From Actinomycetota bacterium (GTDB lineage: Bacteria > Actinomycetota > Actinomycetes > S36-B12 > CAIYMF01), in NCBI GenBank assembly GCA_026393115.1, contig JAPLAU010000026.1:62001-126000 (forward strand): a stretch of DNA of 64,000 nucleotides, written 5' to 3'. The position numbers and the translations under genes are program-made. The stretch's first letter is position 1, and every line of letters starts with the position of its first letter. Below are positions 9,690 through 48,175 of the stretch, in pieces. The notes beneath the pieces were generated by a model. That model made no database searches and had not been told where the DNA came from. It saw nothing but the letters and a program-made list of their open reading frames with translations.

Positions 9690-10331
9690 TTAAACGACTG
9701 AGCGGAATCCTGAGATGCGCTCGCCGTACCAAGGGTCGTCGACGCTGGAGATGATGACGCCCGAACCGTAGTTGGCCGCGTGAATCATCTTGCCGTGACC
9801 GAGGTAGAAGGCCGCGTGGTGTGCTCCGTTGCCGAAGAAGAACACCAGGTCACCGGGCTTGGCCTTAGCGCGCGACACCGGCTTGAGAGTCGCGAACTGA
9901 TCCCATGACGTGCGCTCGATGGTCTTACCGGCAGTACGCCACACGTAACTGGTGAAACCCGAGCAGTCGAATCGAGTGGGTCCAGAAGATCCGGCCGAAT
10001 ACGACATGCCCTTGCGGCTCAGCGCGATGGAGACCGCCTTGGTGCGCATTGCCGCGGTGCGGACAACGAGCGCCTTGCGTGCCTGCGCTGCCTTTGCCTT
10101 GACGGTGGCCGCGGCGACCTGAGTCTGTGCGACCGCTGCTTCACGGTGGATTTCTGCGACGGCGATGCGGTCGGCAGTGAAACTGGCAGCACTGTCGACG
10201 GCAACGATTGCTGCCGGGTTGGCGGGGGGAAGATTCGCGGAATGGGCAGCCGGAACGCCGATGATGCCGGCGACCAGAGCCGTTCCGATAATCGTGGTAG
10301 CAAGCGTGCGCTTGCTGCGGGTGGACAGCAC
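9690..10331 (-). CDS. Secreted NlpC/P60 peptidoglycan hydrolase
   Basis: 213 residues: signal peptide (about 1-32, ending VPAAHSA), an Ala/Lys-rich helical spacer (about 45-105), then an NlpC/P60 cysteine peptidase domain with Cys123 (FDCSGFTSYV), His172 (HHAAFYLG) and third residue His184 (KMIHAANYG). It would cut peptide stems of peptidoglycan during growth or resuscitation. The GTG start lies 5 bases after AGGAGG. The 5' leader is a c-di-AMP riboswitch, as often seen for actinobacterial cell-wall hydrolases, so its synthesis should fall when c-di-AMP is high. Confidence 0.92.
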   Translation of the reverse strand: MLSTRSKRTLATTIIGTALVAGIIGVPAAHSANLPPANPAAIVAVDSAASFTADRIAVAEIHREAAVAQTQVAAATVKAKAAQARKALVVRTAAMRTKAVSIALSRKGMSYSAGSSGPTRFDCSGFTSYVWRTAGKTIERTSWDQFATLKPVSRAKAKPGDLVFFFGNGAHHAAFYLGHGKMIHAANYGSGVIISSVDDPWYGERISGFRSVV

Positions 10332-10332
10332 A

Positions 10333-10495
10333 GGTTCCTCCTGGAACCGCCTACCGGGTTAGCTGACGGGCTCGGGCTCAGAAGGTGCTGCCCTACTGAG
10401 GGTCACTCGCATCTCTGCGAGCCCTCCCTCGGATTCGCCCCGGGACCTTTCGTACTGTGGGTCCCCGGTCCTGCATGAGGTTCGGCGGTGCGCTC
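10333..10495 (-). promoter_or_regulatory. ydaO/yuaA-type c-di-AMP riboswitch
   Basis: On the minus strand the leader contains the class hallmarks in order: CGCCGAACC, a GGACCGGGGACCC segment, GGGGCGAATCC, AGGGCAGCACCTTC, GAGCCCGAGCCCGTCAGC and TAACCCGGTAGGCGG. The 3' end folds into GGTTCC-AGGA-GGAACC (10348-10333), which contains the AGGAGG ribosome site of the NlpC/P60 gene. A translational expression platform is therefore visible. Boundaries are approximate. Confidence 0.9.
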
Positions 10496-10663
10496 GCACA
10501 CGTGAGGATCACGTGTAGGTAACGGGCACGATTCTGAGGTTAGGACGAATGGGTGACATTGGCCCAACACCGTCTAGGCGTGATGTGACGTGGATCACGA
10601 GCGTTACGAGGGGACTTACGTCCTGAACAGGGGTCTCATTCCCGAATTACGGAAATCTGTTGC

Positions 10664-13476: not shown

Positions 13477-14850
13477 ATGGCCGTTGACGAGACTGTGCGT
13501 CAGCACAAGTACCTGCTGGACGAGAGCCAGATGCCCACAGCGTGGTACAACATCATTCCCGACCTACCCGAGCCCCCGCCGCCGCCCCTTCACCCCGGTA
13601 CCCACGAGCCGGTGGGTCCTGAAGACTTGATGCCGCTGTTCCCGATGGCGCTGATCATGCAGGAGGTTTCGCAGGATCGCTACATCGAAATTCCTGGCGC
13701 GGTGCAAGATATCTACCGCCAGTGGAGGCCGTCACCGTTGTTCCGTGCGCACCGATTGGAGAAGTTGCTCGACACCCCCGCGCGCATCTACTACAAGTAC
13801 GAGGGTGTCTCACCGGCCGGTTCGCACAAGCCCAACACCTCTGTTCCGCAGGCGTACTACAACGCCGTCGAAGGAATCCGCAAGCTCACCACTGAGACCG
13901 GTGCGGGTCAGTGGGGAACGGCGCTCGCTTTCGCGTGCGCGCTGTTTGGGCTTGAGTGCGAGGTGTGGCAGGTGGGTGCGTCGTACGACGCCAAGCCCTA
14001 CCGCCGCCTCATGATCGAAGCCTTCGGTGGTGAAGTGCACCGCTCGCCTTCTGACCTCACCAACGCCGGTCGCATGCTCGGTGCGAACCCCGCGAACCAG
14101 AGTGGATCGCTGGGCATCGCGATTTCCGAAGCAGTCGAGGCCGCCGTTGCCGACCCGACCGTGCGTTACGCGCTTGGTTCGGTGCTCAACCACGTGCTGC
14201 TGCACCAGACGATCATTGGCGAAGAGGCGCTCAAGCAAATGGCGATGGCGGGTGACACTCCGTCGTTGATCGTGGGCTGCACCGGTGGCGGTTCGAACTT
14301 CGCGGGTCTGTCGTTCCCGTTCTTGCGTGAGAAGTTGGCCGGCAACATCAACCCGCGCATTCTCGCGGCCGAGCCGGCGTCATGCCCGTCGCTGACTCGC
14401 GGCGTGTACGCGTACGACTTCGGTGACACTGCCGGAATGACCCCGCTCATGAAGATGCACACCCTGGGCCACGACTTCGTGCCCGATCCCATTCACGCGG
14501 GTGGTCTGCGTTACCACGGCATGGCGCCGCTGATTTCGCACATCTACGAACTCGGACTCATGGATGCAGAGGCTGTTCCGCAGACCGAGTGCTTCTCGGC
14601 TGCCGTGAAGTTCGCCCGTACCGAGGGAATCGTTCCGGCACCCGAGCCCACCCACGCGATCGCCCTGGCGGTGCGTGAAGCGCTCAAGGCCAAGGAGACC
14701 GGCGAGGAGACCGTCATCCTCACCGCGCTGTGCGGCCACGGTCACTTCGACCTTCCCGCGTACGACGCGTACCTCAACGGACGCATGGAAGACGAGGCCG
14801 TGAGCGACGAGCGATTTGCCTCAGCGCTGTCGACCATTCCTGTGATGTAG
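13477..14850 (+). CDS. TrpB-like PLP-dependent enzyme (TrpB2 type)
   Basis: 457 residues, longer than canonical TrpB (about 400). It has the TrpB2-specific N-terminal extension ([20 protein letters not shown]) and the PLP lysine in [10 protein letters not shown] (near 115). The phosphate-binding glycine run is [11 protein letters not shown]. TrpB2 enzymes make tryptophan from indole and serine, or act in serine deamination, without obligate TrpA. No other trp gene is nearby. ATG follows GAGGAG by 8 bases. The leader has an AACCGG/CCGGTT hairpin (13427-13450) with a G/A-rich loop. Confidence 0.9.
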
Positions 14851-14864
14851 CGGTTCATACGCAT

Positions 14865-14923
14865 CGAGACCCCACTCCGGCGTCACTTCAGTGCACCTGA
14901 AGTAGCGCTGGGGTGGGGTCTCG
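14865..14923 (+). terminator. Long hairpin downstream of trpB2
   Basis: CGAGACCCCAC at 14865 pairs with GTGGGGTCTCG ending at 14923. An inner arm (CACTTCAG with CTGAAGT) closes on the loop, giving a nearly continuous stem of more than 20 bp. No T run follows, so termination strength is uncertain. Confidence 0.6.
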
Positions 14924-14930
14924 GCGTGTG

Positions 14931-15030
14931 TGGCGCGGGTCGGGTCGTGGCGCCGGTTGCGAGTGGCGCGGGTCGGGTCGTGGCGCCGGTTGCGAGGAGC
15001 TGCGGGTCGGGTCGTGGCGCCGGTTGCGAG
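14931..15030. repeat. Three tandem 33/34-bp repeats
   Basis: Units at 14931-14963 and 14964-14996 are identical. The third (14997-15030) differs at its left end. The shared core reads CGGGTCGGGTCGTGGCGCCG then GTTGCGAG. No unique spacer separates the units. Confidence 0.85.
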
Positions 15031-15042
15031 GAGCTGAGCGAC

Positions 15043-15100
15043 TTCATCCATACGTTTGCGTCATAAATCAGGCGTTGATTGACGCAAACGTATGGATGAA
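15043..15100. repeat. Perfect 21-bp inverted repeat
   Basis: Left arm 15043-15063 (begins TTCATCCATACG, ends TTTGCGTCA) and right arm 15080-15100 are exact reverse complements around a 16-base loop that itself contains ATCA/TGAT. No T run and no open reading frame. It could be a protein-binding cruciform, a terminator or a small mobile element end. Confidence 0.8.
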
Positions 15101-15160
15101 CGTGAGGGTGGCTCGTGAACGGGTCAGGCCTTCCCGGTGTGCTCGCCTGGGCTCAACCGC

Positions 15161-15182
15161 AAGTGTCATGAACGTGACACTT
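15161..15182. promoter_or_regulatory. Operator-like palindrome
   Basis: AAGTGTCA-TGAACG-TGACACTT, perfect 8-base arms, 62 bases before the ATG of the secreted-protein gene. A possible -10 TATGCT follows at 15210. Half-sites match those at 7927-7942. Confidence 0.5.
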
Positions 15183-15243
15183 TGTGTGGGTTTGCTGAGT
15201 CCGCCGACGTATGCTCGGGAAAACGACGGACAAAGGAGTCACC

Positions 15244-16353
15244 ATGCGGTTTGGACGAGTGCAGCGGAATCTGGTCGCGGCGTGCGCTGGCGCAGTGTTG
15301 CTCGCGGTGGGGCTGGCGGGACCTGCGAGTGCCTCGCCGACGTACCTCGACAACGCCAACTTCCAGGAACTGTCGGTTGCCATTGCGAACAGTCAGACCG
15401 TGTACATCCCGGGTGCGTGCATCGACGCCTCACAGGAGTTCTTCACCCTGGTGTCTATCCCGGTGCGTGCCGACACCAGTTCTCTGTGCTTCGACTCCGG
15501 TCATACCTACCTCACCTTCGAACGGCAGGTGTGGTCTTCGGGGTCACCGGTCACCACGGAGTCAACACTCGACGGCTTCGACGGAACCGTGGGGTACTCA
15601 CGGCTCGTGACGGGCGCAGGCGGTGTGCGCTTCCAAACCGCGGCGCTTGCGCGACTCGGCAAGCCCACCGCGACATTCCAGACGTCTGTCAACACTGAGG
15701 GTGCGTGGCTCGCAGACCTTCTGCCGAACGGCATCGGGCAGCGCGTGGTCGCCTACGGATTTCCTGGCGCCTTTTTGAGCGCGTTCGTGCTTTCGGTGGG
15801 AGCTGGTGAATCAGTCGACAGCACGGTCACTCGCCTTCCCGGTACTGATCTCGGAACCTACGACTACTTCATCGGGATCGTGCCCGGGGCCAGCAGCAGC
15901 TTCACGAATAGGCAGATCGTGTTCACGGTCGACTCCGCGGCGCATCTCGTTCGCAAGGTGGTCGAAACCACGGCCAACGGTGGCGACATCGAGACTCGCC
16001 AATTTGTGTACAGCCTCGACCAGGCGTCGCCCGGCTTCTGGGACAGTCGTACCTTGCCGTCGGGTGCGGTCACGGTTGATCACGACGCGCTCATTCGAAT
16101 GAGTCGACGCATCTCCGCCGAAGCTGTGGCGGCTCCGAAGGCGCGCAGCATCGTCTCGAAAGCGACGACTCTCTCATCGCCGAACGGGGTGACGGCCGCG
16201 CGCATTCGGCAGGCGACTGCGGCGGTAGGCCCGCGAGGAGTGAGGATCTCTTATGTGACAGGCGGCGTGAAACTCACCGCCACTTACCAAGGAGTGACGG
16301 GCTCCCAGTGCGTGCGTGCGGTGCGCGGACGAGCGGTGCGTAGCTCCTGCTGA
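15244..16353 (+). CDS. Secreted protein of unknown function
   Basis: 369 residues. Clear signal peptide: basic MRFGRVQR, hydrophobic core AACAGAVLLAVGLAGPA and an ASA-S cleavage site near 31. The mature part is rich in Thr, Ser and Val with no recognised catalytic motif or sorting signal. Two cysteines lie near the start (GACIDA, SLCFD) and two at the C-terminus (SQCVRAV, SSC), suggesting disulfides. ATG 15244 is chosen over upstream starts because AAAGGAG lies 6 bases before it and the signal peptide begins there. A palindromic operator candidate lies upstream. Confidence 0.8.
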   Translation: MRFGRVQRNLVAACAGAVLLAVGLAGPASASPTYLDNANFQELSVAIANSQTVYIPGACIDASQEFFTLVSIPVRADTSSLCFDSGHTYLTFERQVWSSGSPVTTESTLDGFDGTVGYSRLVTGAGGVRFQTAALARLGKPTATFQTSVNTEGAWLADLLPNGIGQRVVAYGFPGAFLSAFVLSVGAGESVDSTVTRLPGTDLGTYDYFIGIVPGASSSFTNRQIVFTVDSAAHLVRKVVETTANGGDIETRQFVYSLDQASPGFWDSRTLPSGAVTVDHDALIRMSRRISAEAVAAPKARSIVSKATTLSSPNGVTAARIRQATAAVGPRGVRISYVTGGVKLTATYQGVTGSQCVRAVRGRAVRSSC

Positions 16354-16362
16354 TCGGCCGCG

Positions 16363-17634
16363 CTACTTGGGCGGAATGACGTCCATGCCGAGGTAGGGGC
16401 GCAGCGCGGCGGGAACCTTGACCGAACCGTCTGCTTGCTGGTGATTCTCGAGAATCGCGACGATGATGCGCGGAATCGCCACGAGAGTTCCGTTGAGTGT
16501 GGCAACGGGCGTGGGATTTCCGTCGGCACCGCGCATGCGAATGCGCAGGCGGCGTGACTGGAACTCGGTGCAGTTCGACGTGGAGGTCACTTCGCGGTAG
16601 CGGTCCTGCGTCGGAATCCACGCCTCGCAGTCGAACTTGCGCGCAGCACTCGAACCGAGGTCGCCGGTTGCCACGTCGATGATGCGATACGGAACTTCGA
16701 TGGCGTCGAGGAACTCACGCTCCCAACCCAGGAGCCGCTTGTGCTCATCGTATGAATCGGCTGGGTCGCAGTAACTGAACATCTCGACCTTGTCGAACCA
16801 GTGCACACGCACGATGCCGCGGGTGTCCTTGCCGTGCGATCCGGCCTCACGACGGAAGCACGGTGAGAAGCCCGCGTAGCGCAGGGGAAGTGATGACTGA
16901 TCGAGAATCTCGTCCATGTGAAATGCGGCGAGTGGAACTTCGGCAGTTCCGACCAGATACATATCGTCTGCCTCAAGCCGGTACACGTTCTCAGCAGCTT
17001 GACCGAGGAAGCCGGTACCTTCCATCGCGGCGGGCTTCACGAGCGCCGGCGGGATGATGGGCGTGAACCCGTTGCCCACGGCCTGCGCCATCGCGAGGTT
17101 CACCAGCGCGAACTCGAGCAATGCCCCTGGTCCGGTGAGGTAGTAGAAGCGTGAGCCGCTGACCTTCGCGCCGCGCTCGACGTCAATCGCACCCAACAGT
17201 TCGCCCAGTTCAAGGTGATCGCGCGGGCTGAAACCTTCGGCCGCGAAGTCGCGCGGAGTTCCGATGTGCTCAAGCACGGTGTAGTCGTCTTCACCGCCGA
17301 TGGGTGCGGCGGGATCAACAACATTCGATAGTCCGAGTAGCGCAGTGTTGAAGCGCTCGTCGGCATCGCGCACGGTCGCTTCGGCTTCTTTCACAGAAAC
17401 CGACAGTTCCTTGGTGTGCGTGAGCAACTCGGCCTTCGCGTCTCCTGTTGCCGACGCCACCTGCTTACCGAGTGTCTTCTGCTCGGCGCGTTGTGTTTCG
17501 AATGACAAGAGGGCTTGACGTCGCGCGGTATCGGCGGCCAGTACCTCGTCGACCAGTGCGGGGTCTTCGCCACGCGCCGTCGCTGAGGCGCGGACGATGT
17601 CGGGTGTATCGCGCAGGACGTTGACGTCGATCAC
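16363..17634 (-). CDS. serS: Seryl-tRNA synthetase
   Basis: 423 residues, class II synthetase that charges tRNA-Ser. The N-terminal coiled-coil arm (about 25-105) grips the tRNA. Motif 2 is seen as [19 protein letters not shown], and motif 3 includes [19 protein letters not shown]. The start overlaps the stop of bpa by 4 bases, so the two are co-transcribed. A tRNA-Ser(UGA) gene lies 30 kb away. Confidence 0.96.
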
Positions 17635-19122: not shown

Positions 19123-21783
19123 GTGAGTCGGTTCAGTGGTGTGCGTCGGTTCGTGGCGGGTGCGGCAGCAGTAACATTGCTGGCTGCGGGCGTGGTGGCG
19201 GCGGGAGTTACGCCAGTATCGGCGGCTGCCGTCAGTTCCCAGACGTTCTCTACACCTGGTGACTTCACCTTTACTGTCCCCGACGGAGTGACAGCTGTGC
19301 GAATCAGTGCGGTAGGGGCTGGGGGAGCGACGCACGTGGAGCGTCTGAATTGCGTCGACTACGGCTTTTTCGGCGGCGTTATCTGCTCCAGTACTCAGTA
19401 CTACTACGGCGGTCGGGGTCGTTCGATCACGACGTACCAGCAAGTGCAGGGTCAGGACCAATTGAGCGTGCATGTCGCGGCTGTTTCTGAATCTGCCACA
19501 ACCGTTGCCGGTGGTCGCATCAGTGTGAGTGCCCCGAATGGTGGTAACGTCCATGATCAGCAGATTTGCACCTACTTCGGCTGCACTTCTTTTGGATGGG
19601 TGGGGGGCTCCGACGCGGGTGGGGCAACGGTCTCGACCTCGGCGCCCGGGTATCCCGCGGATGTGTCCGCGTTGGTTAGCAATAGGGACTCTTCTGGCTC
19701 GCTCGTGATTGAGTGGGCAAAGTCAATGATTGTGACCTCAGCCTCCGATTCCGGGGCTGGATCGCTGCGGGAGGCGATCACAGCCGCCAACGACACGGGA
19801 AATGTCGACGCTACCCTCCCGGACGTGATCACCTTCGACCCGTCGGTGACTGACCCGATCGTGCTGGCCAGCGACTTGCCGGCGATTACGGGTGCGGTGA
19901 ATATTGTGGGGCCGGGGGCACGAGTGCTGACGGTCAGCGGCGACGACAAGTTTCGACCGTTCTCGTTCGCGGCGGGGTCGACAGTGCGGCTGAGCGGACT
20001 GGGGATCGCGCATGGCCATGGGGGCGAGCAATTCGCCCCTTCTGGTGGCAACGTTCAGGTGGCGCAGGGGGCGACTGCGTTCATTGACGGTGTGTCGCTA
20101 ACGGGTGGGTCTGCTCATGACGGGGGCGGTGTCACGACGAGTGGAGACCTGACGCTGACGAACTCGGTGGTGTCCGGCAACAGCGCTAGTCAGTGGGGCG
20201 GTGGCGTGATGGTGGTGAAGTACCCGTCAGCCCCGGCGCCGGCCGTGACAATCGTGAACTCAACGATTACTGGTAATTCCGGCCGGTACAGCGGGGGCGG
20301 TGTGATGACCCAAGGCGGCGGTGTGGTCACGGTGACAGCGTCAACAATTGCGGGCAACTCTGGGAACGACGGTTATGGCGGCGGAGTATTGACGTACAAC
20401 GGAGGCAGTCTGTCGCTGCGCTCGACTGTGCTGTCGGCCAATTATGCGGCGACTGGCGGTACGTGTGGCACGGTGTATGGCGGATCGGTGACCGACTCCG
20501 GCTACAACGTGTCGTCGGACTCAGCGAACAGCGGGGTTTACAACTCGTGCGGCCTGTCGACGGATAACCATTCGGTGTTCGACGCTGATGGTTCGCCGGT
20601 GGATGTCAATCTCGGGCCGTTGCAAAACAATGGTGGGCCGACTGACACGTTGATGCCGTTGGGTGATTCGCCGGTATTGGACGTGATCCCGCCGGAATTC
20701 TGTACCGATCTGGGCGGGTCTCCTGCGGCGATCACGACCGATCAGCGGGGACAGTCGCGTCCGCAGGGCGCGGGTTGTGAGATTGGCGCGGTGGAGGTGC
20801 CGGCGATCACGGTGACCCCCGACGCCAAGTCCGTGGCCTACAACGACTCGGCGCCTGAGTACACGTTCACGCTGTCGCCGCTGACCCCGTCGACGAACTA
20901 CACCGCGCCCACGTGCACGAGTGGCTACAACGTGGGTGCGGCGAAGGGCTCGACGTTCACGATCTCCTGCGCGGGCGGGAAGGCCGACGGGTACTCATTC
21001 GTGCAGACCGCAACTGCGGACCTTGACGTGACGAAGGCGACCCCAACGGTAGCGATCAACAACATACCCACATCCCCCGTAGTGGGTGACTCGTTCACGC
21101 CGACGTTGACGACGAGTAGTGATGGTGTCACGTCGGTAACGAGTTCGGACACGAACGTGTGCACGGTGGACGCGGCCACCGGACTGGTGTCGTTCATTGG
21201 TGCTGGCACGTGCCCGCTGAAAGCACATGTGGCGGTATCGGCGAACTGGCTGAAGGGGGATGGGCAGGTGCAGCAGGTGAGTGTTGCGAAGGCCAGCACG
21301 TCGGTTTCGATTTCGAATATGCCGGGTTCGGCAGTGGTGGGCGACTCGTTCACGCCGACGTTGACGACGACCAGTGATGGTACGAAGTCGGTGACGAGTT
21401 CGGACACGAACGTGTGCACGGTGAACGTTGGCACGGGCGCGGTGTCGTTCATTGCTGCTGGCTCGTGCACGCTGGTGGCGCACGTGGCGTCGTCGGCGAA
21501 CTGGTTGGCCGCTGATGGTTCGGCGCAACAGGTGAGCGTCGCGAAGGCCAGCACCTCGGTTTCGATTTCGAACCTGCCAGCTTCGGCAGTGGTGAATGCG
21601 TCGTTCACGCCGACGTTCACGACGAGTAGTGATGGTACGAAGTCGGTGACGAGTTCGACCACGAGCGTGTGCACGGTGAACGCAGGCACGGGCGCGGTGT
21701 CGTTCATTGCTGCTGGCACGTGCACGCTGGTGGCGCACGTGGCGTCGTCGACGATCTGGGCGGCCGCCGTTGGGCAGGCGTAG
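19123..21783 (+). CDS. Large secreted beta-helix/repeat protein, ends at an in-frame TAG
   Basis: 886 residues up to TAG at 21781. Signal peptide about 1-36 (SRFSGVRRF, hydrophobic core, PVSAAA). A Gly-rich domain with FTVPDGVTAVRISAVGAGG is followed by SDSGAGSLREAITAANDTG, the usual entry to a right-handed beta-helix (about 210-540, with repeated NSTITGNS, ASTIAGNS, RSTVLSANY turns and a QNNGGPTDT cap). Next comes an MBG-like domain (about 565-640), then three 85-residue Ig-like repeats. The third repeat breaks at GQA-stop-QVSV where its siblings read QQVSV, so a CAG-to-TAG change has cut off the C-terminal fibronectin-like part, still intact in the same frame. Likely a cell-surface adhesin or polysaccharide-binding protein. 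GTG follows GAGGAG. Confidence 0.85.
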   Translation: MSRFSGVRRFVAGAAAVTLLAAGVVAAGVTPVSAAAVSSQTFSTPGDFTFTVPDGVTAVRISAVGAGGATHVERLNCVDYGFFGGVICSSTQYYYGGRGRSITTYQQVQGQDQLSVHVAAVSESATTVAGGRISVSAPNGGNVHDQQICTYFGCTSFGWVGGSDAGGATVSTSAPGYPADVSALVSNRDSSGSLVIEWAKSMIVTSASDSGAGSLREAITAANDTGNVDATLPDVITFDPSVTDPIVLASDLPAITGAVNIVGPGARVLTVSGDDKFRPFSFAAGSTVRLSGLGIAHGHGGEQFAPSGGNVQVAQGATAFIDGVSLTGGSAHDGGGVTTSGDLTLTNSVVSGNSASQWGGGVMVVKYPSAPAPAVTIVNSTITGNSGRYSGGGVMTQGGGVVTVTASTIAGNSGNDGYGGGVLTYNGGSLSLRSTVLSANYAATGGTCGTVYGGSVTDSGYNVSSDSANSGVYNSCGLSTDNHSVFDADGSPVDVNLGPLQNNGGPTDTLMPLGDSPVLDVIPPEFCTDLGGSPAAITTDQRGQSRPQGAGCEIGAVEVPAITVTPDAKSVAYNDSAPEYTFTLSPLTPSTNYTAPTCTSGYNVGAAKGSTFTISCAGGKADGYSFVQTATADLDVTKATPTVAINNIPTSPVVGDSFTPTLTTSSDGVTSVTSSDTNVCTVDAATGLVSFIGAGTCPLKAHVAVSANWLKGDGQVQQVSVAKASTSVSISNMPGSAVVGDSFTPTLTTTSDGTKSVTSSDTNVCTVNVGTGAVSFIAAGSCTLVAHVASSANWLAADGSAQQVSVAKASTSVSISNLPASAVVNASFTPTFTTSSDGTKSVTSSTTSVCTVNAGTGAVSFIAAGTCTLVAHVASSTIWAAAVGQA

Positions 21784-21789
21784 CAGGTG
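21031..21789 (+). repeat. Three 255-bp coding repeats
   Basis: Units begin at 21031, 21286 and 21541 with ACGAAGGC/GCGAAGGCC and encode KA(S/T)xSVSISN...DTNVCTV...GTCxLxAHVA. Units 2 and 3 are closest, pointing to recent duplication. The nonsense codon falls at the end of unit 3. Confidence 0.85.
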
Positions 21790-22404
21790 AGCGTTTCTGC
21801 GGCGCCGGTGGTGGTGACAGCTCCCTCGGTGGCGCGGTCGGTGGCTGGTTCGCCGCGTAATAAGTCGGTGGTGGTGTCGTGGCTGGCTCCGTCTTCGACT
21901 GGTGGTGCCGCGATCAAGGAGTACAAGGTGACGGCGTCGCCGAAGGTGGGTTCGGTGTTCAAGTCGTGTTCGTGGATTCTGACGACGCCGGCGAAACCAC
22001 TTACCTGTGAGGTCAAGAACTTGACCAATGGAGTGTCGTACACGTTCACGGTGAGGGCGACGAACCGAGGTAGCAAGTCGAGCACGACGGCGAAGTCGGT
22101 TGCGGTGATTGCGGGTGCACCGACGGCTCCTCGTTCGTTGGTGGTTTCGACCTCGGTCGCTCACAAAGCGACGGTGTGGTGGACTGCTCCGCAGTACACC
22201 AATTCGGGTGCCGTGACCGGTTACCAAGTGCGCTGGTGCACGGTGGGTGGCTCGTGTTCGGTGTGGTCGACGCTGCCGGCCAGTCCGCGGTCGGCGTCGG
22301 TGACCGGCCGAGTCACGGGTACGAAGTATCGGGTGGAGATCCAGGCCAAGAACGGATCGGGTTACGGTCCGGTGGCCGCTAAGACGTTCACGCAGGCAAA
22401 GTAG
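21787..22404 (+). CDS. Severed C-terminal part of the surface protein (two FN3-like domains)
   Basis: 205 residues in the same frame as the preceding gene, separated only by TAG-CAG. It contains two fibronectin type III-like domains (PSVARSVAGSPRNKSVVVSW...; APTAPRSLVVSTSVAHKATVWW...) ending SGYGPVAAKTFTQAK. These match the two C-terminal domains of the neighbouring 953-residue protein. GTG at 21787 gives a formal start, but there is no ribosome site and no signal peptide. It is therefore either dead sequence or made only by readthrough. Confidence 0.7.
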   Translation: MSVSAAPVVVTAPSVARSVAGSPRNKSVVVSWLAPSSTGGAAIKEYKVTASPKVGSVFKSCSWILTTPAKPLTCEVKNLTNGVSYTFTVRATNRGSKSSTTAKSVAVIAGAPTAPRSLVVSTSVAHKATVWWTAPQYTNSGAVTGYQVRWCTVGGSCSVWSTLPASPRSASVTGRVTGTKYRVEIQAKNGSGYGPVAAKTFTQAK

Positions 22405-22505: not shown

Positions 22506-25367
22506 GTGAGGGCTTCGAGTAAGGGCGGGGTTGTGGGTCGGTTCAGTGGAGTGAAGCGGATGGCGGCAAGTGCCGCGACGCTCGCTTTGCTGATTGGCGG
22601 AATCGCAGTCACAGGTGCCACGCCGGTCTCGGCAGCTGTTCCCAGCGAGGTCGCGATCTCAGTCGTTTCGGATTCGCCCTCGATCACGTACGGCGACGCC
22701 GGTCCGGCGACAATCGGCTATACGACTGTCCCCGTCACGACTGCCGATGACTGGACGACTGAACCGACATGTGCGGTGTACGCATTGGTTGATACGGGCT
22801 TCACCGCCGCGCTGAGTGCCCCTTACGCGATCGGCTTGTATGTCACGCACTGTTCTGGCGGTGTCGCGAGTGCCGTCAACTTGCTTTCGTATGTTGAGGG
22901 CACGCTGACCGTCAACAAAGAGACGCTGTACGTCGTGCCCGACGGCAAGTCGGTGACCTACGGAGACGCGGCACCGACTTACACATTCACTTTCCATTCG
23001 ACGTCCGTCGACGGCGGTGTCGTGACGCCGACGGTCGACAGTTCTCCCTCGTGTGGCAGCGTCTACACCTCGTCGGCTTCGGCGTCTCTGTCTCCGGTCA
23101 CCATCGAGTGCTCGGGCGGCTCTGACTCGATCTACTCGCTTGATACAAGTGCCACCGGCCAACTGACGATCGCTAAGGCTGCGTCGTCAACGGTGGTCAC
23201 GTGCACTGCGGGGCCGTTTACCTACACCGGCTTGTCGCAGAGGCCCTGTTCTGCGGGTGTGACCGGGGCGGGCGGGTTGTCGCAGTCGAAGACTCCTACG
23301 TACGCGAACAACACCAATGCGGGTAGCTCGGCGTCGGCGTCGTACAACTACGTCGGCGATGCGAATCACAACTCATCCTCGGACAGCACGACCTTCACTA
23401 TCGGTAAGGCGACGTCGTCAACGGTGGTGTCGTGCACACCTTCGGTGACCTATACCGGTATAGCGCAGACGCCGTGTTCGGTGAGTGTGTGGGGAGTCGG
23501 AGGTTTGTCGTCGACGCCCTCACCGACCTACGCGAACAACACCAATGCCGGTGATCCGGCGTCGGCGTCGTATAGCTACGTCGGCGATGCGAATCACAAC
23601 TCATCGTCGGACAGTGCGAACTTCACTATCGGTAAGGCGTCGTCGTCAACAGTGGTGTCGTGTAGCGCTGGGCCCTTTACCTATACGGGCTCAGCGCAGA
23701 CGCCGTGTTCGGTGGATGTGTCGGGAGTGGGAGGTTTATCGTCAACGCCCTCACCGACATATCTGAGCAACACCAATGCCGGTAGCTCGGCGTCGGCGTC
23801 GTACAGCTTCGGTGGCGATGCGAATCACAACTCATCGTCGGATAGTGCGACCTTCACTATCTTGAAGGCTGCGTCGTCGACGGTGGTGACGTGCACACCT
23901 TCGGTGACCTATACGGGTATAGCGCAGGAACCGTGCTCGGTGGGTGTGGAGGGGGCAGCTCTGTCGCGGTCCGACCTGCCTGCCGACTATGTGAACAACA
24001 CCAATGCCGGCGATCCGGCGTCGGCAACGAATAACTTCGGTGGCGATGCGAATCACAACTCATCGTCGGACAGTGCGACCTTCACAATCCGTAAGGCGAC
24101 GTCGTCGACAGTGGTGTCGTGTCTGCCTGTGACGTACACGAGTTTTGCGGTGGCTCCGTGTTCGGCGAGTGTGACGGGAGCGGGCATTCTTCCGGCGCTT
24201 ACTTTCTCGCCGACGTCGTATTCCAACAACATCAATGCGGGTAGCTCGGCGTCAGTGTCGTACAATTTCGTTGGCGATTCGAATCACGACTCATCGTCGG
24301 ACAGCACGACCTTCACCATCGCAAAGGCAACGTCGCAGACGGTGGTTTCGTGCGGCCGACTCGAGTTCACGTACACGAGTTTTGCGGTGACGCCGTGCAT
24401 CGCAACTGTCGGTGGTGCCGGTTGGCCCCTACCCGTCTATGTCACCCCGACCTACGCGGACAATACGTATGTTGGCACCAACGTTGCGTCGGCCACATAC
24501 GAGTACGTCGGGGATGGCAACCACACGCCGTCGTCGTACATCAAGCACTTCAGCATTCTCAAGGCGCCGTCGACGACGGTAGTCACCTGCCCCGCGTCGG
24601 TGCCATACACGAGTTACGCGGTGACGCCGTGTTCGGTGAGTGTGACGGGAGTTGGCGGCCTCGCGCTGACCCCAACCCTGAACCCGACGGAGAACTACGC
24701 GCACAATATTGCGGTAGGCCTGAACACTGCGTCGGCGAGGTACACGTTCGACGGCGATGAAAACCACAGCGGCTCAACGACAAGTAAGTTGTTCTCGATC
24801 ACGTCGGCGCCATCGGTAGCGCGATCAGTCACTGGGTCGCCGCGTATTCGGGCTGTTCTGGTCTCGTGGGCGGCACCATCGAGTCCAGGCGGTGCGACCA
24901 TCACTGGTTATGTCGCAACCGTCGTGGGTTCGACTAAGAAATGCACCGCGACTGGATCACAGCGATCGTGCACGGTGTCGGGATTGACCAGTGGCACGTC
25001 GTACAAGTTCACTGTGAAGGCGACCAACTCGGTGGTCAAGTCGAGCACCTCGCCTGCTTCCGGTGCGGTGATTGCTGGCGCGCCGACCGACCCGCGTTCG
25101 TTGGTAGCTTCATTCCCAGCGAAGAAGTGGGCAAAGGTGACGTGGGTGAAACCCTCGTACAGCAACGCGGGCGCAGTCACCGGGTATCGCGTGCGTTGGT
25201 GCAAGGTCGGTAGCACCTGCACTGCGTGGTCGAGGCAGCCATCGTCGCCGTTGGTGTCGGCGATCGGCGGCCGCCAGAAGAACGCGCAGTACCGCGTGGA
25301 ACTGCAGGCGAAGAACTCATCGGGCTACGGTCCGACTGCGAGCAAGACCTTCGCACAGACGCTCTAG
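22506..25367 (+). CDS. Large secreted Ig-like repeat protein with two FN3 domains
   Basis: 953 residues. Signal peptide (RFSGVKRM, hydrophobic core, TPVSAAV) closely matches that of the upstream paralogue. MBG-like segments lie at about 45-220, then seven Ig-like repeats of about 77 residues (ASSTVV(T/S)C..TYT...PCS...NNTNAG..SASYN(Y/F)xGDANHNSSSDS), then two FN3-like domains (about 765-953) ending SGYGPTASKTFAQTL. There is no LPXTG or membrane anchor, so it is released or held non-covalently. GTG 22506 has GGAG 9 bases upstream; GTG 22533 aligns with the paralogue's start and is an alternative. It probably acts in adhesion or aggregation. Confidence 0.85.
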   Translation: MRASSKGGVVGRFSGVKRMAASAATLALLIGGIAVTGATPVSAAVPSEVAISVVSDSPSITYGDAGPATIGYTTVPVTTADDWTTEPTCAVYALVDTGFTAALSAPYAIGLYVTHCSGGVASAVNLLSYVEGTLTVNKETLYVVPDGKSVTYGDAAPTYTFTFHSTSVDGGVVTPTVDSSPSCGSVYTSSASASLSPVTIECSGGSDSIYSLDTSATGQLTIAKAASSTVVTCTAGPFTYTGLSQRPCSAGVTGAGGLSQSKTPTYANNTNAGSSASASYNYVGDANHNSSSDSTTFTIGKATSSTVVSCTPSVTYTGIAQTPCSVSVWGVGGLSSTPSPTYANNTNAGDPASASYSYVGDANHNSSSDSANFTIGKASSSTVVSCSAGPFTYTGSAQTPCSVDVSGVGGLSSTPSPTYLSNTNAGSSASASYSFGGDANHNSSSDSATFTILKAASSTVVTCTPSVTYTGIAQEPCSVGVEGAALSRSDLPADYVNNTNAGDPASATNNFGGDANHNSSSDSATFTIRKATSSTVVSCLPVTYTSFAVAPCSASVTGAGILPALTFSPTSYSNNINAGSSASVSYNFVGDSNHDSSSDSTTFTIAKATSQTVVSCGRLEFTYTSFAVTPCIATVGGAGWPLPVYVTPTYADNTYVGTNVASATYEYVGDGNHTPSSYIKHFSILKAPSTTVVTCPASVPYTSYAVTPCSVSVTGVGGLALTPTLNPTENYAHNIAVGLNTASARYTFDGDENHSGSTTSKLFSITSAPSVARSVTGSPRIRAVLVSWAAPSSPGGATITGYVATVVGSTKKCTATGSQRSCTVSGLTSGTSYKFTVKATNSVVKSSTSPASGAVIAGAPTDPRSLVASFPAKKWAKVTWVKPSYSNAGAVTGYRVRWCKVGSTCTAWSRQPSSPLVSAIGGRQKNAQYRVELQAKNSSGYGPTASKTFAQTL
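23175..24800 (+). repeat. Seven coding repeats of 228-237 bp
   Basis: Repeat units start at 23175, 23406, 23634, 23865, 24093, 24324 and 24561, each with AAGGC(T/G). Lengths of 231 and 228 alternate, then 237. Units 1-4 are most alike, while 6 and 7 have diverged. Two sub-types alternate (CTAGPFTYTG versus CTPSVTYTG), suggesting duplication of a two-unit block. Confidence 0.9.
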
Positions 25368-47930: not shown

Positions 47931-47946
47931 CCAACCCCCCATTCGC

Positions 47947-47989
47947 ATCGGGGGCACCCAAGCGCGCACCTAGCGCGTTTACGCGCCCC
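47947..47989 (+). repeat. 43-bp dispersed element, copy 2
   Basis: Begins ATCGGGGGCACCC, ends TTTACGCGCCCC. Identical to copy 3. Contains GCGC-ACCTA-GCGC and outer GGGG/CCCC arms. Confidence 0.9.
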
Positions 47990-48001
47990 ACCCCCTTCCG
48001 C

Positions 48002-48044
48002 ATCGGGGGCACCCAAGCGCGCACCTAGCGCGTTTACGCGCCCC
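48002..48044 (+). repeat. 43-bp dispersed element, copy 3
   Basis: Identical to copy 2 and 55 bases downstream of it in the same orientation, separated by CACCCCCTTCCGC. Confidence 0.9.
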
Positions 48045-48175
48045 ACAGTTGGCGTGGTGGGCCAGTCGAATCTGAGAAACAAGTGGACACGGTGGTTTCC
48101 TAGCCTCAAAGAGCAGCAAACAGCGAAGATCGCAGAACCTGAGGTGCTGCACCGGCGCGCGGCGCACTGCGCGTT

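Follow-up and report, generated by a model that had tools for sequence, protein, structure and literature searches.

An intergenic palindrome of an actinobacterial genome and its suggested link to AbiEi-DUF559 nuclease genes

Introduction

The intergenic region considered here raises a simple question: what is a perfect 21-bp inverted repeat that stands beside a short tandem array, and to which gene, if any, does it belong? The window, a 64,000-nucleotide stretch of contig JAPLAU010000026.1 (positions 62,001 to 126,000; assembly GCA_026393115.1), comes from an Actinomycetota genome of 3.51 Mb in 34 contigs (G000), which was compared with a sister genome (G001). The initial annotation of this window described three head-to-tail 33/34-bp units followed by perfect 21-base arms, and likened the arrangement to iterons beside a recombination or binding site rather than to a terminator.

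The window locus

The tandem units and the arms were both confirmed by inspection of the sequence, by a repeat search and by TRF. The units occupy 14931-15035, where the repeat search places three 34-nt direct copies (14935-14968, 14968-15001 and 15002-15035) and TRF calls a tandem array (14930-15036). The arms of the inverted repeat lie at 15043-15063 and 15080-15100, separated by a 16-nt loop (15064-15079), and the partial symmetry attributed to this loop is borne out by four more pairs in the DNA fold. The inverted repeat is not a product of chance, since two matches to the 21-mer arm (up to 3 mismatches) occur in the window compared with 0.00 expected from 100 shuffles. The folding energy of the hairpin as DNA is -26.9 kcal/mol compared with a shuffled mean of -7.99 (z = -9.65), and the element forms a strong hairpin as RNA too. 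Inspection of the sequence found no T run after either arm, in agreement with the initial annotation.

A second palindrome, absent from the features listed initially, is located at 14856-14932 on the plus strand (CATCGAGACCCC...GGGGTCTCGGCG). This palindrome has 36-nt arms that are 78% complementary and a 5-nt loop, begins 6 bp past the stop codon of the upstream gene, and is found at the orthologous site in G001 as well; the tandem array starts where it ends. The two palindromes are referred to below as solo copies of family A (14856-14932) and family B (15043-15100), the latter matching the family consensus CTTCATCCATGCGTATCCGTCA-N16-TGACGGATAGCGATGGATGAAG on its minus strand. The flanking genes encode a PLP-dependent enzyme (13477-14850, plus strand; Pfam PALP), which we take to be TrpB-like, and seryl-tRNA synthetase (16363-17634, minus strand; Pfam scan of the neighbours). 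Between them is a 369-aa ORF (15244-16353, plus strand; alternative longer start at 15211) that has a signal-peptide-like N-terminus by eye, no Pfam family and no match in G001. The five neighbour proteins compared with Pfam comprise these three, a proteasome activator and one protein without a family.

The comparison to iterons did not hold. The 33-mers have no other match in G000 (blastn) and no similarity to palindromes A or B, and no replication or partition protein was found among the five neighbours by the Pfam scan, the last point having been made initially as well. An iteron array or plasmid-type origin, from which the locus differs in that no replication initiator is encoded among the scanned neighbours, was rejected on these grounds. 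We regard the 33-mers as a local tandem duplication unrelated to the palindrome system, in which they would play no role.

Palindrome families A and B in the source and sister genomes

A search of G000 with the 21-base arm identified further copies. By covariance model, family B is a dispersed palindrome of ~60 bp found at 8 places in G000, a count that leaves out a ninth, weak match (E 0.197), and at 7 places in G001, two of which are contig-end halves of one site. The window copy is unusually perfectly paired, differing from the paired form of other copies (e.g. the G001 copy on C255) at five positions per arm, all of them compensated. Covariation among 14 aligned B copies is modestly above that of shuffles (25 to 182 of 500 shuffles reach the observed value, depending on the measure), and the compensatory changes come largely from the window copy. 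Family A is found at 4 places in G000 and 5 in G001, with the pair that flanks a nuclease gene counted in each; the G001 pair is on two contigs.

Searching for copies beside other genes revealed that both families bracket DUF559 genes elsewhere. Two B copies 1,022 bp apart bracket such a gene on C5 of G000, two orthologous B copies bracket the orthologous gene in G001 (C349), and two A copies bracket a different DUF559 gene on C25 of G000. Each of the five AbiEi-DUF559 genes scored in G000 (C25, C5, C7, C10 and C27) lies between homologous palindromes, some of which are degenerate, and a matching pair of another family, C, surrounds a gene on C224 of G001. The B-unit gene has an in-frame stop in G000 and none in its G001 copy. 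Two other DUF559 genes of G000, which belong to a second subgroup (C7:72091 and C23:166696), have no palindrome pair. Palindromes A and B of the window are solo copies of two different nuclease-palindrome units, ~110 bp apart. The initial preference for a recombination or binding site over a terminator is supported to the extent that the palindrome belongs to a dispersed family tied to a nuclease gene.

Several other arrangements were observed at these loci. In G000 and G001 a single long palindrome lies near genes of the second DUF559 subgroup (L068 2487-2543; L071 1383-1429; L072 1405-1453). By sequence, units with different palindromes adjoin groEL in G000 and G001 (L009/L046) and in a further genome, G282 (L117). 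On C139 of G001 (L030 1503-2891), two A palindromes at a distance of 1.3 kb enclose an S58 peptidase gene (PF03576), and the flanks of this locus have no match in G000. The peptidase gene is possibly cargo carried between palindromes.

Recurrence across Actinomycetes

An alignment of five unit proteins gave matches in 268 of 393 Actinomycetes genomes, with at most five candidates per genome scored. A scan of named genomes yielded eight loci, three of them from G001. Among the other five, two are two-sided, L081 (Actinomycetales MAG RI_321) and L086 (Phycicoccus sp. Soil802). At each of them a single palindrome sequence flanks the gene left and right, and the two loci share this sequence neither with one another nor with families A and B. 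A palindrome was found on one side at L085, and none near the gene at L083 and L084. Named plasmid records contained two weak relatives by tblastn (Tsukamurella, Collinsella).

The distribution of palindromes was then counted at 80 of the listed loci, taken from other Actinomycetes genomes with up to 3.5 kb of flank each (L117 and L081 being the same locus), using 250-bp flank bins and a hairpin score of 12 or more. Within 250 bp of the gene there are 80 palindromes in 159 bins, a count in which some hairpins are surely ordinary terminators, compared with 9 in the next 157 bins (250-500 bp) and 29 in the 1,789 bins farther out (500-3,500 bp). The 80 nuclease genes themselves contain 3. At this threshold, palindromes occur within 400 bp on both sides of the gene at 25 loci, on one side at 31 and on neither at 24. 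Both edges of the gene are enriched, with counts of 42 upstream and 45 downstream. Most palindromes are 45-80 bp long with ~20-bp arms.

The 25 two-sided loci span 18 genera and 12 families. Measured against 594 between-genome pairs, the similarity of left and right palindromes lies above the 99th percentile at 24 of these loci and above the maximum at 20. A weaker partner copy (score 21 or more) is also found at 21 of the 31 one-sided loci, compared with 1 of 61 distant control stretches. Measured between inner edges, the flanking copies are 972-1,154 bp apart (median 1,063). Over all 25 loci the copies are direct at 12 and inverted at 10, with 3 ties, while direct copies account for 9 of the 12 loci with an orientation score difference of 8 or more. 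The motif CTGTGGA occurs upstream of the gene at 37 of the 80 loci, compared with a single downstream occurrence among the 80 and with 3 among 80 distant stretches. Units of the form palindrome - promoter region - nuclease gene - matching palindrome are widespread in Actinomycetes.

In some of the loci L117-L196 the upstream motif, as CTGTGGA(T/C), is present in 2-3 copies 11 bp apart. We take it to resemble either a DnaA box or an AbiEi-type operator.

Private palindromes and single nuclease genes

The specificity of the palindromes was probed by joining ten palindromes from eight genomes as one query and searching the same eight genomes with it. In all eight, the listed matches fall on the genome's own palindromes and none on foreign ones. 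The number of places per family ranges from 2 in G339, the flanking pair alone, to at least 41 in G413; the other seven genomes were counted by hand, and the counts for the richest genomes refer to the candidates scored. Three palindrome families coexist in G282, at 6-7 places each.

A corresponding search, which scored 40 of the 66 first-look candidates in G000 and 40 of the 69 in G001, showed families J, H, H', I, A and B to be dispersed in these genomes, with J at 21 and 19 places, respectively. Among the candidates scored, three foreign palindromes gave no match in either genome, and palindrome C was found only in G001, the holder of the C unit. The nuclease gene does not share this dispersal. 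Among 31 palindrome loci of G413, a DUF559 relative is encoded at the unit alone, and among 64 palindrome loci of G000 and G001 relatives are found only at the J unit and at the split end of the A unit.

Orthologous units of the two genomes were also compared. The units on C7 of G000 and C93 of G001 are orthologous and have different palindromes, H and H'. With the two flanking copies included, G000 contains six H and one H', and G001 six H' and one H; solo copies follow the palindrome version of the resident nuclease. The H and H' proteins are 60% identical in the AbiEi half and 85% in the nuclease half. Between the two genomes, identity is 92-97% in either half for units I and J and 92% over the whole protein for unit B, and the palindromes of all three are conserved. 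A strongly diverged AbiEi half was thus seen in one (H/H') of the four ortholog pairs of G000 and G001. In other genera, palindrome sequence and protein N-terminus diverge in parallel, and overall divergence increases with them.

The gene contexts of these copies bear on the reading that they are ordinary bidirectional terminators or RNA hairpins spread by gene conversion. According to a rough gene caller, 9 of 32 copies of own-genome families lie between convergent genes, 6 between tandem and 4 between divergent genes, with 13 undetermined. The initial annotation would have given up its interpretation had the inverted repeat simply marked transcript ends at many genes. Several solo copies do lie just past stop codons, and the strong RNA hairpin also favors this reading, but the contexts are mixed and a B copy at C5:72198 sits between divergent genes. 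In addition, the window copy differs from an intrinsic terminator in having no T run, and palindromes are enriched at both edges of one gene family, its 5' side included, with a private sequence for each nuclease gene. A terminator-only reading was rejected given the mixed contexts and the missing T run at the window copy, and the broader version that includes gene conversion is very unlikely.

Two G413 pairs with copies 1.2-1.3 kb apart (L233 1501-2810 and L215 201-1568) bracket genes other than DUF559, which by eye are esterase-like and lipoprotein dehydrogenase-like ORFs.

The AbiEi-DUF559 protein

The unit protein has ~300 amino acids. Residues 1-200 form an AbiEi-like half that is of a DNA-binding kind, and residues 204-303 form a nuclease half of the Vsr/DUF559 type. 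In an AlphaFold2 model made from six rows (mean pLDDT 89), residues 2-200 resemble the antitoxin AbiEi of the type IV toxin-antitoxin system AbiE (6y8q; Z 10.9, rmsd 8.0 over 170 residues). Residues 204-303 of the model are similar to 3hrl (Z 11.9), to the homing endonuclease I-Bth0305I (3r3p; Z 11.8, rmsd 2.1 over 90 residues) and to the very-short-patch-repair endonuclease Vsr (1cw0; Z 10.1 over 96 residues), and less clearly to TnsA (Z 7.4). Sequence profiles likewise identify DUF559 (Pfam) and 3hrl (E 4.4e-5), and PADLOC AbiEi models match four of five proteins, while NCBIfam and PHROGs hold no family for the unit protein. The combination distinguishes the protein from each of its relatives, as an AbiEi antitoxin does not carry the C-terminal nuclease found here, and what sets the nuclease apart from Vsr is its fusion to a DNA-binding half and its association with palindromes. 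Because E208, D239, E250, G253 and R269 are identical in all 80 loci, catalysis is presumably retained. AbiEi-DUF559 proteins, which are frequent among actinobacteria, have to our knowledge no assigned role.

The AbiEi-like half raises the question of whether the palindromes are operators. An AbiEi-like transcription factor could autoregulate at the flanking palindromes and control other genes through the dispersed copies, with the nuclease half being ancillary. AbiEi antitoxins are described in PMC7319586 as autoregulating by binding inverted repeats, and none of the 32 copies lies inside a called gene (rough gene caller), as would suit such a regulon. Copies are also located 3' of genes and between convergent genes, however, and the invariance of the nuclease residues in 80 loci is not what an ancillary domain would suggest. 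CTGTGGA, in the promoter region, looks like a better operator candidate (37/80 upstream, 1/80 downstream), and a change of sequence throughout a whole family would be odd for a regulon. Taken together, these observations make operators a decidedly unlikely explanation.

A role in defence or addiction, in which the nuclease would be a restriction or abortive-infection effector and the palindromes would mark self DNA or sequester the protein, is most improbable. The PADLOC matches and the restriction-like Vsr fold are what such an effector would show, whereas palindromes that are private in sequence and range in number from 2 to at least 41 are not readily accommodated.

Presence and absence of palindromes and units

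Sites at which a palindrome or unit is present in one genome and absent from another provide a view of turnover. In G001 the C unit is flanked by a DUF2017 gene and by a gene that, by eye, is metalloprotease-like. The corresponding junction in G000 lacks a C palindrome and is occupied by a rhodopsin gene; in G040 only 12 bp separate the two flanking genes. A solo H' copy in G001 (L321) forms an insert of ~77 bp relative to G000 (L299), and the 7-bp direct repeat CGCGCGG is present on both sides of this insert (L321 1193-1281). The repeat is a candidate target-site duplication, a feature of IS elements and MITEs, and was observed at one site. In the window, ~1.4 kb of G000 (14933-16360), comprising the 33-mers, the B copy and the secreted-protein ORF, is missing at the trpB-serS junction of G001, where palindrome A closely precedes serS. 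Presence/absence sites thus exist for the C unit, a solo H' and the window B copy, and their polarity may be either gain or loss. Most of the G000 sites compared, 6 of 8 in family B and at least 12 of 19 solo sites in family J, are matched by an orthologous copy in G001, and turnover therefore appears to be slow, with movement either rare or old.

A solo palindrome adjoins each of three gene-sized indels that distinguish G000 from G001, namely window 14933-16360, L341 ~558-1193 and L335 ~1285-1886. Each indel carries an exported-looking ORF with a signal peptide, lipobox or membrane anchor, as judged by eye.

The C unit is also relevant to a homing scenario, in which the DUF559 gene would be a free-standing homing endonuclease able to invade an old intergenic hairpin such as a terminator and to duplicate it, leaving solo copies as uninvaded targets or as scars of recombination between two copies. 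The resemblance of the nuclease half to I-Bth0305I and Vsr, the direct orientation of flanking copies in 9 of 12 clear loci (among all 25, 12 are direct, 10 inverted and 3 tied) and the lack of the C unit at its junction in G000 and G040 are all in line with homing. Homing should multiply the gene, however, and a single gene accompanies each palindrome family despite as many as 41 or more copies; no multiplication at cognate targets is seen among the 31 G413 and 64 G000/G001 loci. Furthermore, the palindrome appears to follow the unit rather than to precede it, as C was found, among the candidates scored, only with its unit and the H and H' copies track the resident unit. The unit protein differs from I-Bth0305I, too, in its fusion to an AbiEi-like domain and in being bracketed by private palindromes. 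Homing is consequently regarded as unlikely.

Proposed mechanism and comparison with REP/RAYT systems

The explanation that we favor, and consider rather probable, is that the dispersed palindromes are non-autonomous mobile repeats served by a resident AbiEi-DUF559 nuclease; that this protein binds the palindromes and spreads them is what we infer. First, the AbiEi-like half would recognize its cognate palindrome as a dimer or as an extruded hairpin, a step suggested by the binding of inverted repeats reported for AbiEi proteins in PMC7319586. Next, the nuclease half would nick or cut the palindrome. Repair or copying of the cut ends could then seed new solo copies at intergenic sites or re-write existing ones, such that the palindromes behave as non-autonomous mobile repeats that depend in trans on one resident nuclease gene, much as has been proposed for REPs and RAYTs. 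The window B copy would be one such product, either inert or incidentally used, for example as an RNA hairpin. A supplementary terminator function of the copies would fit this model. Some observations speak against this model. No palindrome reached the threshold at 24 of 80 loci, an in-frame stop interrupts the B-unit gene in G000, and palindrome pairs also bracket genes other than DUF559.

The arrangement is reminiscent of REP sequences and their RAYT genes. According to PMC2817692, RAYTs evolve fast, coevolve with the REPs on their flanks and correlate with the abundance of REPs. Similarly, the DUF559 gene lies between two copies of its own palindrome (two-sided at 25 of 80 loci), and the cognate palindrome is dispersed in the same genome, with the exception of G339, where only the flanking two are found. 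Coevolution of gene and repeat, and repeat abundance that tracks the gene, are further points of resemblance to RAYTs as PMC2817692 presents them. In contrast to the Y1 (HUH) tyrosine transposase of RAYTs, the enzyme here is an AbiEi-Vsr (DUF559) fusion, and a search for the Y1 family (PF01797) gave no match in G000 while being positive in 5 of 14 control genomes; membership in the RAYTs was rejected on this result. REPs are given in PMC3733652 as 20-40 bp long and tagged with GTAG or CGTC, whereas the palindromes here are mostly 45-80 bp with ~20-bp arms. By eye, no GTAG end was noted in them, and in several families CGTC(A) lies within the stem, close to the loop. The flanking copies are direct in most clear cases, unlike the inverted REPs of RAYTs. 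Because the enzyme and the palindrome length differ and no Y1 transposase match exists in G000, the system appears to work by analogy with REP/RAYT without being a member.

We know of no repeat system to which either the enzyme or the repeat is homologous. That many of these nuclease genes have a private palindrome on either side suggests a mobile repeat system of a kind not linked before. Among the papers listed in searches of the open-access literature, none was seen to link DUF559 or AbiEi fusions to palindromic repeats. A broader proposal, offered tentatively and with somewhat less than an even chance of being correct, is that Actinomycetes hold a large, unrecognized class of nuclease-palindrome systems in which an AbiEi-Vsr fusion spreads a private palindrome and re-writes its copies along with the recognition domain. 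Such a class would represent an independent, non-homologous origin of a REP-type system, and its palindrome pairs may bound cargo. If so, a whole repeat family would change sequence when the specificity of the protein changes.

If each protein carries a private palindrome, the protein family would gain a testable substrate, and a class of intergenic palindromes in high-GC genomes would be explained. A second, chemically different system would also become available for studying the spread of extragenic palindromes and the reasons for their tolerance by hosts. Finally, the many natural protein-palindrome pairs could be used to derive a recognition code and possibly new site-specific nucleases.

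Other features of the window

An Rfam scan of the window returned a c-di-AMP riboswitch and tRNA only. The riboswitch (10333-10497, minus strand) is directly upstream of an ORF (9690-10331) that by eye is NlpC/P60-type hydrolase-like. Long tandem repeats (255 and 231 bp) are present at 21082-21794 and 23304-24353, the first of them inside a large ORF that starts at 19123. A 55-bp tandem unit adjoins tRNA-Ser at 47936-48046, and part of this unit recurs by eye, reverse-complemented, beside the B copy at C2:90714 (L017 ~1543-1590), marking it as a further dispersed repeat.
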